Origin: Gemmatimonadota bacterium
Lineage (GTDB): Bacteria; Gemmatimonadota; Gemmatimonadetes; Gemmatimonadales; GWC2-71-9
NCBI GenBank assembly: GCA_003221895.1
Contig: QHUJ01000046.1
Location: 1 to 32,957 of the forward strand
Direction of reading: 5' to 3'
Length of the DNA: 32,957 nt
Shown here: positions 5,334 to 14,194 of the stretch, in pieces
Layout: every line of letters starts with the position of its first letter
Numbering within the stretch: position 1 is the stretch's first letter
Translations under genes and position numbers: made by a program
The notes under the pieces: generated by a model
Told to the model about the DNA's origin: nothing
Databases searched by the model: none
Seen by the model: only the letters and a program-made list of their open reading frames with translations

Positions 5334-5404
5334 GCGGCTCCAATGGCGTGCGTGGTACGGGAAATCTAGCGGGACTGCGATCCGCCCGGACTACAGCGCA
5401 TGCG

Positions 5405-5495
5405 GCCTAATGGATCGCGCTTAAGCTGCGGCGCGCTGGTGAAAGAGTCGTCATTCAATATCCTTCGCGCCGCCAGCTTGAAGCGCTTGTCAGAC
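5405..5495 (-). repeat. attC site D (91 bp), degenerate core boxes
   Basis: Inner arms are intact: L'' CGCTTCAAGC and L' GCTTAAGCG with an extra C. Both outer boxes deviate: R'' is GTCTGAC instead of RYYYAAC, and R' is ATTAGGC instead of GTTAGGC, so the G at the cleavage point is missing. The centre (ATTGAATGACG) matches site F closely. This site is probably weak or inactive in recombination. Confidence 0.75.
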
Positions 5496-5675
5496 GGCGC
5501 GCTTGCGAGAAGACGCATGCCGCTTCAAAACCTGCGATCCGGCAGGTGCAGCCCTTCCAACGAACCAGACGGTACGAATGTCGTAGCCCGACTCCAAGAG
5601 ATGGGTCGCAAACGAGTGGCGCAGCGTGTGGCAGCTCGCCGCCTTCGCGATCCCCCTCGGCCCGCGTCTTGCCGT
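5490..5675 (-). pseudogene. Integron integrase (intI) 3' remnant
   Basis: The minus-strand frame after the RCC1 stop codon reads [13 protein letters not shown] and then [21 protein letters not shown] (5568-5630). The second piece is the signature around box 2 of the tyrosine recombinase IntI (catalytic HxxR). Box-2 surroundings of IntI usually continue with QELLGH and a catalytic Tyr within MIYTH; here the sequence changes after RTV to [10 protein letters not shown] and no active-site Tyr follows. The frame ends at a TGA inside the R'' box of attC D. There is no room for the N-terminal 200 or more residues, which are replaced by the RCC1 gene. It is clearly a broken fragment on the same strand as the cassettes. 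Whether it is the relic of the integrase that built this array is inference. Confidence 0.82.
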
Positions 5676-6845
5676 TCAGTCCGGAGAGGCAACCTGGACA
5701 GGTCGGGAACGGTCCTCGAATATCCCGTCGCCCAGTTGTCCGTAATTGCCCTGGCCCCAGCAGAATGCCGTTCCGTTAGCGGTACGACCACAGGTGTGGT
5801 TTCCGCCCGCCATAATCGCGATATAGACGCCGGGTGGGGCGATGCGTACTGGAATCGATGAGTCTTCAGTCGAGTCGTTCCCGAATTGACCGCGCACGTT
5901 GCTGCCCCAGCAGTACACCGCTCCATCGGTGGTCTGGCCACAACTGTGCTGGTTGCCGAGCGATATCGCGGCCCACCGCAGATCCCCGTTCACAAGTGTG
6001 GGCGAGCTCGTCGCGGCAGTAGTTCCGTTTCCCAGTTGTCCGTGTCCATTCCAGCCCCAGCAGTACACCTGTGCATCCTGAGTGAGGCCGCAGACGTGAT
6101 TCGTGCCTACAGCGAGCGACGTGAAGCGGTGATTTCCGACGACGCGGGACGGAGCAGCGCTGTCGGGGCCTGCCACCGGTGGCTGGCTATCGCCCAACAT
6201 GCCGTAGTCGTTGACCCCCCAACAGTACGCGTCGCCTTCGATCGTGATACCGCACGAGGTGCCAATACCGGCGTACACGGCAACCCAGGACAGGTTACCG
6301 AGAACCGCGACAGGGCGCGGCGTCCCCCCAAACAACAGCTGTCCATTTCCCAATGCACCGCGGAATTCATCCCCCCAACAGTAGGCCTGGTTATCGACGG
6401 TCACTCCACACGTGTGCGCGCCGCCTGCCGAGATCGTCCGCCAACGAAGGTCTCCCACAACCGGGGACGGAGTGCGCTTGGCTATGAAAGAGCTATCACC
6501 AACCTCTCCCCATTGATTCGCCCCCCAACAGCGAGCCCCGCGCTCCGCATCGAGTGCACAGATCGACAGGTCCCCGACGGTAATGACCGTGAACCGATAC
6601 CCGCCCGGGACGGGCAGGGGTAGCGCCGACTTTGGGATGAGCGAATCCTCGAGAGGCTGCGGGTCGTAATAGCCGGGCACCCAGCCCCAGCAGAACGCCT
6701 CGCTGGTGGGTGAAAGACCGCAGGTATAGGGCCCGCTGGCAGCGAGTGTTACCCAGTGAGAACTGCGCGCAGGCTCAGAGGTGTCGATACACGCGCCGAC
6801 CGCGCCCAGCTCGCCGAACAGAGCGAGAACGACCGGGAATCTCAT
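5676..6845 (-). CDS. Secreted RCC1-repeat beta-propeller lipoprotein
   Basis: The protein has 389 residues. The N-terminus MRFPVVLALFGELGAVGAC is a signal peptide with a possible lipidation Cys19. The rest holds about seven RCC1-type repeats of around 50 residues, each with a His/Tyr-x-Cys-Gly start and a Tyr-Cys-Trp-Gly end (HTCG and YCWG), consistent with one seven-bladed propeller. The paired Cys residues probably form a disulfide in each blade, as suits an exported protein. RCC1-type propellers are protein-binding; the ligand is unknown. The ATG at 6845 directly follows a TAA (6846-6848) that ends an upstream broken frame. The stop TGA is followed in frame by the intI remnant, so no attC of its own separates the two. 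Confidence 0.8.
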   Translation of the reverse strand: MRFPVVLALFGELGAVGACIDTSEPARSSHWVTLAASGPYTCGLSPTSEAFCWGWVPGYYDPQPLEDSLIPKSALPLPVPGGYRFTVITVGDLSICALDAERGARCWGANQWGEVGDSSFIAKRTPSPVVGDLRWRTISAGGAHTCGVTVDNQAYCWGDEFRGALGNGQLLFGGTPRPVAVLGNLSWVAVYAGIGTSCGITIEGDAYCWGVNDYGMLGDSQPPVAGPDSAAPSRVVGNHRFTSLAVGTNHVCGLTQDAQVYCWGWNGHGQLGNGTTAATSSPTLVNGDLRWAAISLGNQHSCGQTTDGAVYCWGSNVRGQFGNDSTEDSSIPVRIAPPGVYIAIMAGGNHTCGRTANGTAFCWGQGNYGQLGDGIFEDRSRPVQVASPD

Positions 6846-6999
6846 TTACGCCATCACCACCACCGGGGCGTGGCCCGCGTCGACGAGCTGCTTCGTCACC
6901 GGTTCCACGCGAAAGTTCAGCCCTTCCAGGGTTCGCGAACCCAATAGCGCGAAATCGCCGGGCAACCGGCAGCGGGTCCATTGAGTTCCTTGTCGCGCC
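6846..6999 (-). other. Cassette leader with a frame-broken small ORF
   Basis: An ATG at 6981 lies 24 bases inside the cassette boundary and has AGGA a few bases upstream, the ideal position for a cassette gene. Its own frame gives MDPLPV and then a low-complexity Arg/Gly sequence running into RCC1. The neighbouring frame gives a more protein-like sequence (GDFALLGSRTLEGLNFRVEP, then VTKQLVDAGHAPVVVMA) and stops at TAA 6846-6848, directly against the RCC1 ATG. One base shift in the CCCGG run would join them into a peptide of about 44 residues. The family was not recognised. Confidence 0.3.
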
Positions 7000-7130
7000 G
7001 TCTAACGGATTGCGCTTAAGCTGCGGCGCAGACTTGAGGTTTTCACAAACGGAATGCTAGCACACCGACAGTCGGCAGTCATTGCGATCAATTGAGCGCA
7101 GGCGCCGACAGCTTCAAGCGCATGTTAGGC
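7000..7130 (-). repeat. attC site E (131 bp)
   Basis: On the minus strand R'' is GCCTAAC, L'' GCGCTTGAAGC, L' GCTTAAGCGC and R' GTTAGAC, with an extra G in L''. The centre belongs with sites A and B (TTTGTGAAAA). It follows the small membrane protein gene. Predicted cleavage is between 7006 and 7005. Confidence 0.9.
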
Positions 7131-7140
7131 AGCACGGCCG

Positions 7141-7470
7141 TTATCCCCCTTCCATTGGTGGAGGCCAGAAATCCGTCGGAGGTCTGCGCCGGAAAGGTCG
7201 TCCACGTCCTAGCACACCCTGATAGATACCCCAGCAGACACCCATGAATACGGATGCGCCCCAGGACATTTGCGGGAATAATTGCTTGTGTAACCCGAGC
7301 GACAAGTAAATGAGACTGGCAACGAGGGTTGTGGCGAGTCCGCCAGCGCTGGCGGCAACCCACTCGCGACCCCAGCGAGGCGAGCTTGAGTCCTTGATCT
7401 TCACGTACGTCCCGGCGCCGGCTAGTTGAGCAGGGACTAGCCCGATGAAAATGATCGCCACAGGACCCAT
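7141..7470 (-). CDS. Small hypothetical membrane protein
   Basis: The protein has 109 residues with probably three membrane segments: about 3-22 (GPVAIIFIGLVPAQLAGAG), 39-58 (AASAGGLATTLVASLIYLSL) and 68-85 (SWGASVFMGVCWGIYQGV). The C-terminus is basic and proline-rich. The ATG at 7470 has GAGGG about eight bases upstream and lies 35 bases inside the cassette boundary. It is the sole gene of a 0.5-kb cassette. No family was recognised, which is usual for cassette genes. Confidence 0.65.
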   Translation of the reverse strand: MGPVAIIFIGLVPAQLAGAGTYVKIKDSSSPRWGREWVAASAGGLATTLVASLIYLSLGLHKQLFPQMSWGASVFMGVCWGIYQGVLGRGRPFRRRPPTDFWPPPMEGG

Positions 7471-7498
7471 GGTAAGCCCTCGGCTTACAGGCCGTGCT

Positions 7499-7591
7499 GT
7501 CTAACGAATCGCGCTTAAGTTGCGGCGCGCTGAAGAAAAAGGTGTCATTCAATATTCTACGCGCGGCCCCAGCTTCAAGCGCTTGGTAGGC
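7499..7591 (-). repeat. attC site F (93 bp), degenerate R''
   Basis: On the minus strand R'' is GCCTACC (expected GCCTAAC), L'' CGCTTGAAGC, L' ACTTAAGCG and R' GTTAGAC. The centre ATTGAATGACACC is nearly the same as in site D. The stop codon of the Adhesin_E-like gene (TGA 7575-7577) lies in the L'' arm. Confidence 0.85.
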
Positions 7592-8009
7592 GCCGGCACA
7601 ACGCGCTCGTCGATTGCGCGCCAAGACTACCCTTAGAATACGCGCGCCACTTCGCGTCCGTGCTGTCCACCTGTACGGTGCTCGACGTCGCGCTGTCGCC
7701 CAGAAGGACCAGCGGTTTCCTCGAGTCGACAGCTTTCAGCACACGTTGACGTAGACCTCGACAGTCAACTTCAACCTGTTCCACACGGTACTCGGCTCCA
7801 AGCTCGGGCCCGTGCCGATCAAAGTCCCAACGCAACCAGACTATGAAGGAGCCATCCCTGCGTCCGACCGCGGCGGTGTCCAAATCGACCGTCTCGCCTT
7901 CAGTGGTAAGAAGCCGCACCCAGTGGCGAGATGGGGCGACCTGGCAGGGAGCCATCGATGGAGCAAGGATAGAAGTGAGCAGAACAACCAGGCTTACCTG
8001 AGTTTTCAT
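7575..8009 (-). CDS. Secreted Adhesin_E-like (surface-adhesin protein E family) protein
   Basis: The protein has 144 residues. Residues 1-23 are a signal peptide (SLVVLLTSILAPSMAPCQ). The remainder has the layout of the small Adhesin_E domain: a WVRLL start, TVDLDTAAVGRRDGSFIVWL (Asp then a Trp strand), a central DCRGLRQRVL Cys, then KWRAYSKGS and a final LCRRL Cys, so one disulfide is likely. Family assignment rests on the motif pattern only. It would act in the periplasm or at the surface. The start is ATG 8009, 40 bases inside the array edge. Its C-terminus and stop are encoded within attC F. It is the first (rightmost) cassette gene and so would be nearest to any cassette promoter. Confidence 0.65.
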   Translation of the reverse strand: MKTQVSLVVLLTSILAPSMAPCQVAPSRHWVRLLTTEGETVDLDTAAVGRRDGSFIVWLRWDFDRHGPELGAEYRVEQVEVDCRGLRQRVLKAVDSRKPLVLLGDSATSSTVQVDSTDAKWRAYSKGSLGAQSTSALCRRLPSA

Positions 8010-8043
8010 GTGCCACCCGAACGCAAAAAGGACCGTGCCGAGC

Positions 8044-8050
8044 GCCTAAC
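8044..8050 (-). other. Lone R box at the array edge (candidate attI/first cassette junction)
   Basis: The minus strand reads GTTAGGC here, matching GTTRRRY, with no partner L arms to its right. This is what the junction between attI and the first cassette looks like. The next 184 bp to ppdK have no attC and no integrase reading frame. Confidence 0.5.
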
Positions 8051-8161
8051 GGTAGTTCGACAGAACTGTTATCGCCATTTCGCCCATATTCCTCGCAGCC
8101 TAAGCTGAGAATCCCGTGCTCAATCAATGAAATAGGCCGGTCGGTCTAAACGCAATATCAC

Positions 8162-11803: not shown

Positions 11804-12664
11804 ATGTTCCCCTCTCTTGTTGTGACGGTCGGACTGCTGATGCAGGCGGTGGGCAATCCACAGCCCGTAGCGGCCACGCGAGCACCCCGCCCCGAACCGG
11901 TCCGCGTCTGGCGCACCGACTCTGTTGCGTACGTGCAGCTCGTGCAACCCGGTCACCTTGTGGTCCTGCAAGTCGATGCGATCGGTCGAATCGCGGTGCT
12001 GTTCCCTTCAGCTCCGTGGGACAGCACGGCGGTCTCGGCGGGCGCGCCCGTCGCCATCGACCTGGTACCGGAAGCCCAAGGGAATCCCGCAACGTTCCTG
12101 GCGCTCCGATCTCGTTGGCGCTTCGACTTTGAGACGCTGCTGTCGGGGATCGAGTGGAATTACGATGCGTTGCTGCTCCAGCCGACCGCGGGCGATCCGC
12201 TCGCGGCGCTATTCGACATCGCGGACCGCATCACGCACGGCCGTCCGTATGACTACGGCGTCGTGACCTACGCGCGGGATGGGAGCGTGTTGGCCCGCGG
12301 ACCGGTACAGACGCCCGATGTGTGCCTGGGCTGCGTGCGCCGCGCGGCTCCCGCTGCCGCTCCGGCTGCGGTGGCCACGAACTCGGCGGACTGTTCGAAT
12401 GCGTCGCTGACGAACGCGTTTTGTGGGGTCAACAGCGGCAGCGTATCGTTTACGACCGCGCCCTCCGGACCGCCGCAAGTGATTTACCAACCAGCGCCGG
12501 TCACATACACGTACTATCCGCTCTATCCCGGAGTGTTCTTCAGTCAGTCGCGGTCACGATTCGACCGGCCGATTCCGGAGATGCGTCCCGCCGTGCCGAG
12601 CGCGCTTTCGATCGCGCCGCGGGTGGTCGCTCCGTCGCCTGGAATGCTGGGCCGGCGTCCCTGA
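11804..12664 (+). CDS. Secreted protein with DUF4384-like domain
   Basis: The protein has 286 residues. A short signal peptide (MFPSLVVTVGLLMQAVG) is followed at about 35-105 by a segment with RVWRTDSVAYVQLVQPGHLV and then GRIAVLFPSAP. This recalls DUF4384-type domains, which sense or present envelope data and often precede Ser/Thr kinase or TPR partners. The middle carries CLGCVRR and an Ala/Pro linker with two further Cys. The C-terminal quarter is Pro/Tyr/Ser-rich and probably disordered. AGGAGG lies 20 bases before the ATG, which is far; no better start is in frame. A strong hairpin terminator follows 13 bases after the stop. Function unknown. Confidence 0.6.
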   Translation: MFPSLVVTVGLLMQAVGNPQPVAATRAPRPEPVRVWRTDSVAYVQLVQPGHLVVLQVDAIGRIAVLFPSAPWDSTAVSAGAPVAIDLVPEAQGNPATFLALRSRWRFDFETLLSGIEWNYDALLLQPTAGDPLAALFDIADRITHGRPYDYGVVTYARDGSVLARGPVQTPDVCLGCVRRAAPAAAPAAVATNSADCSNASLTNAFCGVNSGSVSFTTAPSGPPQVIYQPAPVTYTYYPLYPGVFFSQSRSRFDRPIPEMRPAVPSALSIAPRVVAPSPGMLGRRP

Positions 12665-12677
12665 GCGACAAACGAGA

Positions 12678-12723
12678 AACGCAAAACGGGACACGGTGCG
12701 TTTGCCGTGTCCCGTTTTGCGTT
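12678..12723. terminator. Strong hairpin terminator (19-bp perfect stem)
   Basis: The arms 12678-12696 and 12705-12723 are exactly complementary (AACGCAAAACGGGACACGG and its reverse complement) around an 8-base loop. It is A-rich at one foot and T-rich at the other, so it can serve both strands. On the plus strand it ends the gene at 11804-12664. On the minus strand it lies 5 bases after a duplicated tmRNA 3' end, where the ssrA terminator is expected. Confidence 0.85.
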
Positions 12724-12728
12724 ATGAG

Positions 12729-12770
12729 TGGAGGCGCGGGGAATTGAACCCCGGTCCGAGCATGACTCCG
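12729..12770. repeat. Distal att-like direct repeat (copy of ssrA 3' end)
   Basis: It is 42 bases identical to 14153-14194. It includes the T-arm and acceptor strand of tmRNA (GGTTCAATTCC and GCCTCCA on the minus strand). It is not a functional tRNA or tmRNA because the 5' part is missing. It contains the start codon of the BTAD gene. Confidence 0.85.
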
Positions 12771-13484
12771 CAGCTTCGTCTGCTGACGTTTGGCGGCGTG
12801 AACCTGCGCGTAGGTGATTCCACGATGACTGGGGCGGCGACCGGACGCCGTCGGCTGGCCCTCCTTGTGCTGCTTGCCGTCGCGCGTGATAGGGGGCTGA
12901 ACCGCGACAAAGTCCAAGCCTATCTCTGGCCCGAGAGCGACGCCGAGCAGGCGCGTCACGGGTTGAACCAGATGGTCTATTTCCAGCGACGCCGCCTAGA
13001 GAGCGGAGACGTGTTCATCGGCAAGAAAACGCTTCGTCTCAATCGGGCGGTAATCACTGCGGATGTATGGGATTTCGAAGACGCCCTCGACACGGGCGCC
13101 CACGAGGTGGCGGTAGGGTTATATGCCGGCCCGTTTCTCGATGGCTTCTTTGTGCGGGAGGCGCCCGGGTTCGAGCGGTGGGTTGACGAGCAGCGGAGGC
13201 GCTTTGCGGAACGATGTGCTCACGCTTTTGGCCAGCTCGCGGCGGCGGCTCCAACAAAGCACCAGGCGGCGGAGTGGTGGCGCCGCGCTGCCGAGCTGAA
13301 TCCCTATCACACGGACACCGTGCTGCGCCTGGCCAACGCGTGGGTGGCGATCGGCGATCGGGCGGCGGCGCTGCGGTGCGCCCAGCAGCATGCAGATCTG
13401 CTTCAGACCGAGCTCGGGCTTCCGCCGGATCCCAACGTGGTGAGAATGATCGAGCAGTTGCGGCAAGGCTGTGAGCTCGGTTGA
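12762..13484 (+). CDS. BTAD/SARP-type transcriptional regulator, short form
   Basis: The protein has 240 residues. Residues 3-95 resemble the winged-helix DNA-binding domain of SARP/BTAD regulators (LRLLTFGGVNLRV, GRRRLALLVLLAVARDRGLN, then YLWPESDAEQARHGLNQMVY). Residues about 98-240 form the bacterial transcriptional activator domain of TPR-like helices (FERWVDEQRRRFAERCAHAF, then the final TELGLPPDPNVVRMIEQL). Relatives are often longer, with kinase or TPR parts, so this is a minimal form. The ATG at 12762 lies inside the 42-bp att-like repeat; the upstream extension to 12696 runs through a terminator and a tmRNA fragment and is not credible. It is in the mini-island next to a lipoprotein on the other strand. 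Target unknown. Confidence 0.8.
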   Translation: MTPQLRLLTFGGVNLRVGDSTMTGAATGRRRLALLVLLAVARDRGLNRDKVQAYLWPESDAEQARHGLNQMVYFQRRRLESGDVFIGKKTLRLNRAVITADVWDFEDALDTGAHEVAVGLYAGPFLDGFFVREAPGFERWVDEQRRRFAERCAHAFGQLAAAAPTKHQAAEWWRRAAELNPYHTDTVLRLANAWVAIGDRAAALRCAQQHADLLQTELGLPPDPNVVRMIEQLRQGCELG

Positions 13485-13559
13485 CGAGTGCCCAGACGCG
13501 GGGCCCGCGGCGTCGCGCCGACGGGCCCGGTTGGAGAACGTGACATCAGGAACTTGGCA

Positions 13560-13943
13560 TCACCTTGGACAGCTGCCAATGCAATTCCTCACTCTGAAGG
13601 TCTCAACCCTCTGCTGACTGCCGGACGCCACCGTCAACGTCAACAACAGATCTCCGTCGGTGTCCTCGACGCGGAGCGACACCTTTTGCTCGGTAGCCGT
13701 CATGATGCTTTTGCCCGATTGGTTCGTTACGATCCAGTCGTATGTGTATGCACCGGATCCGCCGAAAGCGAATGCCGCCCAGCTGAAGAGGCCGTTGGCA
13801 TCGATCCGGGATGGACCGCTGATCTCAACCGAGAGAGACGGGTCCGAATGAGGTGGCGCGGCTGGCGGAACTGCGACTGGGGACTCGCAGCCGATCAGCA
13901 ACGCGGCGCATGTGGCGTAGGCGTGGAGCGGAAAGCGACGCAT
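13560..13943 (-). CDS. Lipoprotein with a PKD/Ig-like domain
   Basis: The protein has 127 residues. The N-terminus has a lipoprotein signal (HAYATCAALLIGC, lipidation at about Cys19) followed by a Pro/Ala linker. Residues about 36-118 have a PKD or Ig-like beta-sandwich pattern (SVEISGPSRIDANGLFSWAA, then YTYDWIV, then LLLTLTVASGSQQRVETFRV). Two Cys at the C-terminus (NCIGSC) may pair. The ATG at 13943 has AAGG six bases upstream. It is the second gene of the mini-island, convergent with the BTAD gene. A role in adhesion or recognition is only a guess. Confidence 0.62.
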   Translation of the reverse strand: MRRFPLHAYATCAALLIGCESPVAVPPAAPPHSDPSLSVEISGPSRIDANGLFSWAAFAFGGSGAYTYDWIVTNQSGKSIMTATEQKVSLRVEDTDGDLLLTLTVASGSQQRVETFRVRNCIGSCPR

Positions 13944-14064
13944 AGAACCTTCTTTGTGTTAAGGGACCGGTTTCTTCTGACTCGACTTGTTTCGCTCGAC
14001 TGGAAGACAGATTAAGAAGGGCCGGTCAGTGCGCGGTCACGCGAAAGTCAGCGAGGAGTCATCT

Positions 14065-14099
14065 GGGGGGGGTGGGGGGAGGGGGGGAAAGGCGAGGGG
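14065..14099 (+). other. G-tract cluster (G-quadruplex-capable)
   Basis: Runs of 8, 6, 7 and 4 G are separated by one to eight bases, just downstream of ssrA in its direction of transcription, where the RNA would be C-rich. The composition is unlike the surroundings. Confidence 0.6.
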
Positions 14100-14138
14100 A
14101 GAAAGGCTGGGGAAACCGTCCCCATTCCAATCTCCCCT
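14095..14138 (-). terminator. Possible present-day ssrA terminator
   Basis: A nested hairpin forms from AGGGGAGA (14095-14102) with TCTCCCCT (14131-14138) and an inner TGGGGA/TCCCCA pair (14108-14113 with 14119-14124). It lies 15 bases beyond the tmRNA 3' end. The following RNA is C-rich with only a short U run, so it is weaker than the hairpin at 12678-12723. Confidence 0.35.
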
Positions 14139-14152
14139 TTCCTATCGTTCAA

Positions 14153-14194
14153 TGGAGGCGCGGGGAATTGAACCCCGGTCCGAGCATGACTCCG
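14153..14194. repeat. Proximal att-like direct repeat within ssrA
   Basis: This is the 42-base 3' end of ssrA, identical to 12729-12770. It is the second boundary of the mini-island and keeps the tmRNA intact after insertion. Confidence 0.85.

Follow-up and report, generated by a model that had tools for sequence, protein, structure and literature searches.

How a 1.4-kb stretch holding two genes came to lie between identical copies of a tmRNA gene end is the question raised by this locus from an uncultured soil member of the Gemmatimonadota. The initial annotation of the window (the whole stretch of DNA analysed, 32,957 nucleotides) described perfect 42-bp direct repeats 1,424 bp apart at ssrA, enclosing a BTAD regulator and a PKD-like lipoprotein, and read them as the trace of site-specific integration by a small satellite-like element. 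The repeat search of the window recovered exactly this pair (42/42 bp, spacing 1424 bp) as the only long perfect direct repeat, and a search of the 3.71-Mb assembly with a 30-mer of the repeat, allowing up to 3 mismatches, returned just these two positions. The proximal copy coincides with the ssrA 3ʹ terminus as delimited by ARAGORN and Rfam RF00023, with the encoded CCA of the gene as the exact end of the repeat, so the tmRNA end is indeed duplicated. Between the copies there are one BTAD open reading frame and one convergent small lipoprotein open reading frame, as annotated, and the ATG of the BTAD gene (12762) lies inside the distal repeat. The tag called by ARAGORN for the window tmRNA was odd (GKTHKPTLNW..., in a different frame); read in the alignment, the encoded tag is in fact the usual ANSELALAA of its relatives.

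Features of the ssrA locus and of the insert (window positions)
Feature	Position	Strand	Basis
DUF4384-like gene, convergent with ssrA and next to it where the site is empty	11804–12664	+	Sub-threshold Pfam match
Hairpin of the type found directly after ssrA in relatives	12678–12723		Repeat search; comparison with relatives
Distal 42-bp copy, 100% identical; provides the BTAD start codon	12729–12770	-	Repeat search
BTAD (small SARP-type) regulator; first codons from the ssrA repeat	12762–13484	+	PF03704, E 1.5e-9
Small lipoprotein with lipobox LIGC and a weak PKD-like match; beta-sandwich predicted	13560–13943	-	Pfam; structure model
Lipoprotein promoter, four TGAY boxes and TAnnnT	14009–14061	-	Pattern search; alignment
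Spacer segment TTCTCCCCTCGCCTTTCCC, common only to G002, in the same ssrA–lipoprotein interval	14085–14103	-	Sequence search
Proximal 42-bp copy, ssrA 3ʹ end to CCA	14153–14194	-	Repeat search
ssrA (tmRNA gene), intact, tag ANSELALAA	14153–14507	-	ARAGORN; Rfam RF00023, 139.5 bits; tag from alignment

The ssrA locus was compared in nine congeners and several further members of the family. Empty sites, which had been proposed as the check for an insertion, are present: in G003 and G007, ssrA is followed by a AACGGGACACG-type hairpin and then by the convergent DUF4384 gene 66–76 bp away. A hairpin of this type also stands directly 3ʹ of ssrA in G004, G005, G006, G008, and G009, and across 248 kb of sequence from the genus, hairpins of this kind are rare and mostly located at ssrA. 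In the window, the AACGGGACACG-type hairpin lies past the distal repeat, where the distance from the repeat to DUF4384 is 64 bp, and it is unlike the hairpin now found behind the window ssrA. The empty sites in relatives, together with the position of their hairpin type beyond the distal repeat, indicate that an insertion split ssrA from its own terminator, and the hairpin is probably the original terminator shared by ssrA and DUF4384. We conclude that there is a genuine insertion between ssrA and its terminator, with the flanking gene order being that of the genus.

The content of the gap behind ssrA varied among congeners. Where it could be read (the contigs of G001 and G005 end too soon), both genes were present in G002 and G009, the lipoprotein alone in G006, and neither in G003, G004, G007, and G008; thus the 1.4 kb is not a constant neighbour of ssrA, and its presence in all relatives, which the initial annotation had named as fatal to its reading, does not hold. 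The gap of G006 carries a Phi_1-like lipoprotein (just under the Pfam cut-off) in addition to the PKD-like lipoprotein, and that of G008 carries a gene of 1.9 kb in which a HELGH motif like that of zinc peptidases was read by eye. A second genuine copy of the ssrA end was found in no other genome of the 102-genome family set. Apparent second copies in G075 and G114 were overlapping contig ends, not duplications.

The gene pair itself looks like a regulator with its target. The BTAD structure model (pLDDT 92) comprises a winged-helix domain, which alone was sub-threshold in Pfam, and a BTAD domain. Sequence comparison with the PDB gave generic TPR matches alone and the assignment was settled by fold comparison, in which the nearest solved folds were EmbR (E 5e-10) and AfsR (E 1e-9), with TM of about 0.7. 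The modelled protein therefore has a SARP fold, which points to a small SARP-type activator resembling EmbR and the SARP domain of AfsR in its combination of winged helix and BTAD domain (PMC10936776). For the lipoprotein, Pfam yielded a single sub-threshold PKD-like match, and the model is a beta-sandwich; its best structure match, a CARDB domain (E 6e-4), was too general to assign a function. Neither insert protein was matched by NCBIfam.

In front of the lipoprotein gene, four TGAY boxes follow one another with an 11-bp period (14025–14061), and the last box lies 7 bp before a -10-like TAnnnT element (14009–14014). In SARP promoters described in the literature, the repeats are spaced by 11 or 22 bp, and 8 bp separate the last one from the -10 element (PMC10936776). 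The lipoprotein promoter has this SARP-style layout of 11-bp direct repeats close to a -10-like element, but differs in the box itself (TGAY), in the number of copies (three or four), and in the distance of 7 rather than 8 bp. Unlike small SARP activators that control antibiotic clusters, the apparent target here is a single lipoprotein gene, and the phylum is the Gemmatimonadota. The four-box pattern occurs once in the host genome. Across the 102 family genomes, it was found 11 times, compared with 0 for the reversed pattern, and three TGAY boxes with TAnnnT were found 25 times (loci L120–L144), again compared with 0 in the reversed control, while the chance expectation is about 0.3 for each pattern at an assumed 67% G+C. 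A BTAD gene lies within 1.5 kb in 11 of the 25 three-box loci, 5 of the 11 being copies of the window module, compared with 2 of 30 control loci, a count that is expected since the module-bearing ssrA loci of G009 and G002 are among the controls. A lipobox-like motif accompanied 13 of the 27 listed sites, with a few counted twice because L123 and L139 overlap. The probable role of the BTAD protein is to bind the TGAY boxes and so turn on the neighbouring lipoprotein promoter. In G002 and G009, DUF4384 and BTAD are only about 20 bp apart; the insertion in the window places the terminator hairpin between them, so BTAD expression in the host genome may be altered.

G002 and G009 carry the lipoprotein and BTAD genes in the same order and place beside ssrA, but without the distal repeat. 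The BTAD gene begins there with ATGGAGCAGCTTCG, and the native start ATGGAGCAG also occurs at unrelated loci in G006, G008, G024, and G069. In the window, all sequence before CAGCTTCG has been replaced by ssrA, which changes the native MEQLRLL to MTPQLRLL, and only one base at the join is common to native BTAD and ssrA. This BTAD–ssrA junction was absent from every other module copy with a readable BTAD start, including G002 and G009. An attachment site of a mobile element would be expected in the other copies, and its absence speaks against such a site. We also considered whether CTCCA beside BTAD in G002 and G009 is what is left of an ssrA end; this was rejected, the sequence being the native start ATGGAG that is present at unrelated loci. 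The BTAD copy of G008 (L075 1526–2402, contig C100) shows a 5ʹ partial duplication and a frame change, giving two overlapping matches.

The ssrA-proximal side behaves differently from this far junction. The spacer of the window next to ssrA is homologous to that of G002, a homology carried by one short segment: TTCTCCCCTCGCYTTTCCC, with at most 1 mismatch, occurs once in the window and once in G002, and in 0 of the 8 other genus genomes. The ssrA gene alongside this spacer is conserved between genomes in the alignment. G002 moreover retains half an ssrA-type hairpin in the interval from BTAD to DUF4384, indicating that its pair likewise entered between ssrA and DUF4384, with another far junction. 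One common homologous junction combined with two differing far junctions is the pattern expected of one-sided homologous recombination, although one old island that underwent separate deletions could likewise yield shared near and different far junctions.

Synonymous sites were compared with rows in antisense frames or over ssrA left out. Fourfold-site identity between the window and G002 was 0.78 for BTAD and 0.32–0.60 for the other window genes; between the window and the other genera G024 and G069, it was again 0.77–0.78 for BTAD, compared with 0.41–0.57 for the other compared genes of G024. The BTAD values are above those of other genes, a pattern that, as judged at fourfold sites, shows horizontal transfer of the BTAD gene. 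The signal of the lipoprotein is weaker, with identities of 0.59–0.82 in the correct frame over just 33–47 sites per pair. Pairwise dN/dS was 0.3–0.96 for the lipoprotein (window 13560–13943, L086–L091) and 0.11–0.38 for BTAD, and by these ratios, the lipoprotein evolves fast at the protein level, with its partner BTAD being more constrained.

Between G002 and G009, fourfold-site identity was 0.88 for BTAD, 0.83 for the lipoprotein, and 0.81–0.98 for genes further off on the contig. For the ssrA-flanking genes DUF4384, Yip1, GGDEF, and DUS (L032, L039), it was 0.43–0.57. Genomes alike elsewhere and unlike in these genes have a mosaic ssrA neighbourhood, which suggests allelic replacement around ssrA in these close relatives.

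The age of the junction can be set against that of the module. In the BTAD tree, the window branch is longer than those of G002 and G009, and by the pairwise values its length is about 0.18 synonymous changes per site. If the distal 42-bp copy were as old as this branch, the probability of its remaining unchanged would be 5e-4, so the copy is younger than the divergence of the module or has been kept alike by gene conversion. The 42/42 identity thus implies a young junction.

Agreeing with the initial annotation, we detected no integrase or integrase fragment in the insert; nor was any PF00589 integrase annotated near ssrA in the genus. The assembly, which may lack about 3% of the genome, has as tyrosine recombinases XerC (score 333.9 against a cut-off of 335.2), XerD, and one integrase fragment, and no resolvase-domain protein was found in it. 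This short fragment, which resembles the end of an integron integrase, lies elsewhere in the window, at 5568–5654 on the minus strand. The surrounding stretch at about 5400–8060 is integron-like, with several attC-like sites of the GTCTAACG...GTTAGGC type, read by eye. The insert gave no PHROG or PADLOC match that would mark it as phage or defence, and no tRNA genes lie beside the module copies in the loci of other genomes.

We consider it an even call that the two-gene module entered through ssrA homology on one side and an illegitimate join on the opposite side. The cargo would be a laterally exchanged module of a SARP-type BTAD activator and its probable target lipoprotein. DNA from a G002-like relative already carrying ssrA, lipoprotein, and BTAD would have been taken up by a recipient cell with the empty site of ssrA, terminator, and DUF4384. 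At one end, homologous exchange would have occurred inside the near-identical ssrA; at the other, a homology-free join would have attached codon 3 of the donor's native BTAD gene to the ssrA of the recipient, at a point 42 bp short of the ssrA 3ʹ end. Such a join would leave a perfect 42-bp duplication automatically and would require no integrase, and the duplication would stop at the ssrA 3ʹ terminus because the likeness of donor and recipient ends there. Homology-facilitated illegitimate recombination would in this way produce the perfect repeat, its exact end, the lost native start, and the lack of an integrase together, and recombination anchored in ssrA into an empty site is the account with the fewest steps. 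Like the known products of this process, the insert has one end that homology, here in ssrA, would explain, at most 1 bp in common at the other, and no recombinase gene (PMC3240628). It differs in that the event is deduced from comparison alone, whereas the laboratory cases used designed DNA and not ssrA. Reports of the process cover three competent species and E. coli conjugation, in which it was rare, at 3e-10 per recipient cell (PMC3240628). Against the account based on ssrA-anchored recombination stand this rarity wherever the process was measured, the identical structure that classical ssrA integration leaves, the weaker transfer signal of the lipoprotein, the single short segment behind the spacer homology with G002, and a comparison set in which no intermediate, same-species strain, or donor was found.

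A somewhat less probable history, which we regard as rather unlikely, makes the insert the relic of an integrase-bearing ssrA island that had the gene pair at its ssrA-proximal end and lost the integrase and most of the cargo through differing internal deletions; the deletion in the window would have fused the distal att to codon 3 of BTAD, while G002 and G009 would have lost the att and half the terminator. In a variant, a non-autonomous element was moved by an integrase acting in trans. The precise copy of the ssrA 3ʹ end up to CCA, the empty sites, the variable gap behind ssrA, and the half terminator in G002 all fit such a relic, and ssrA islands with a 3ʹ-end repeat are well known. The vcr islands of Dehalococcoides (PMC3146451), for instance, are likewise inserted at the 3ʹ end of an intact ssrA, with a direct repeat of this end at the far boundary and empty sites in relatives. 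However, those are full elements rather than 1.4 kb without a recombinase, their repeat is 20 bp rather than 42 bp, and the window junction, unlike theirs, is not common to other copies of the same genes. The island history also has to accommodate an insert and genus-wide ssrA surroundings without an integrase, a host assembly without a resolvase-domain protein, a single duplicated ssrA end in the whole family set, a BTAD–repeat junction unique to the host genome, and a 42/42 identity that argues against an old att. Of the initial reading, insertion at ssrA therefore stands, whereas site-specific integration of a satellite-like element is unsupported, given the missing recombinase, the unshared junction, and the lack of an ssrA-end repeat in every other family genome.

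That the locus is an assembly artefact, with module-bearing and module-free strains joined at their common ssrA end, we hold to be improbable. The assembly is fragmented (250 contigs) with 3% contamination, and the contigs of two relatives, G075 and G114, break inside ssrA; but a false join would still need reads with BTAD directly beside the ssrA segment, a junction that no relative has, and the BTAD start codon stays in frame within flanking genes arranged in genus order. It is more improbable still, to the point of being hard to credit, that the pair has always stood beside ssrA in the genus and the repeat was copied later from the resident ssrA. The shared gene order of G002 and G009, without the repeat, would suit such a static arrangement, but the four readable gaps lacking the pair and a BTAD synonymous divergence too low for vertical descent oppose it. 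The differing hairpins beyond the distal repeat and behind ssrA indicate, in addition, that repeat and hairpin were not copied from behind the resident ssrA.

If the module did enter by recombination anchored in ssrA, the gap behind this gene might serve the genus as a docking place for integrase-free gene capture, with the near-identical ssrA as the homology anchor, cargo exchanged one-sidedly between species, and att-mimicking repeats left behind. We offer this generalization tentatively, as a doubtful possibility drawn from comparing genomes. The cargo would be the lipoprotein–regulator pair in the genome of the window (G000), G002, and G009, two lipoproteins in G006, a peptidase-like gene in G008, and none in G003 and G007.

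The promoter comparison provides a testable rule: BTAD or SARP-type regulators of the Gemmatimonadota appear to act on TGAY promoters with an 11-bp period, many of them before lipoprotein genes. Our literature search on BTAD or SARP regulators in this phylum returned unrelated community studies or nothing, and found no paper describing a SARP-style TGAY promoter class there. For the insert itself, flanking repeats that copy the 3ʹ end of a tRNA or tmRNA gene are routinely taken as proof of integrase action. The present comparison argues that the same signature can arise when homologous exchange has its anchor in the RNA gene, a route that would account for tiny integrase-less "islands" in metagenome genomes.
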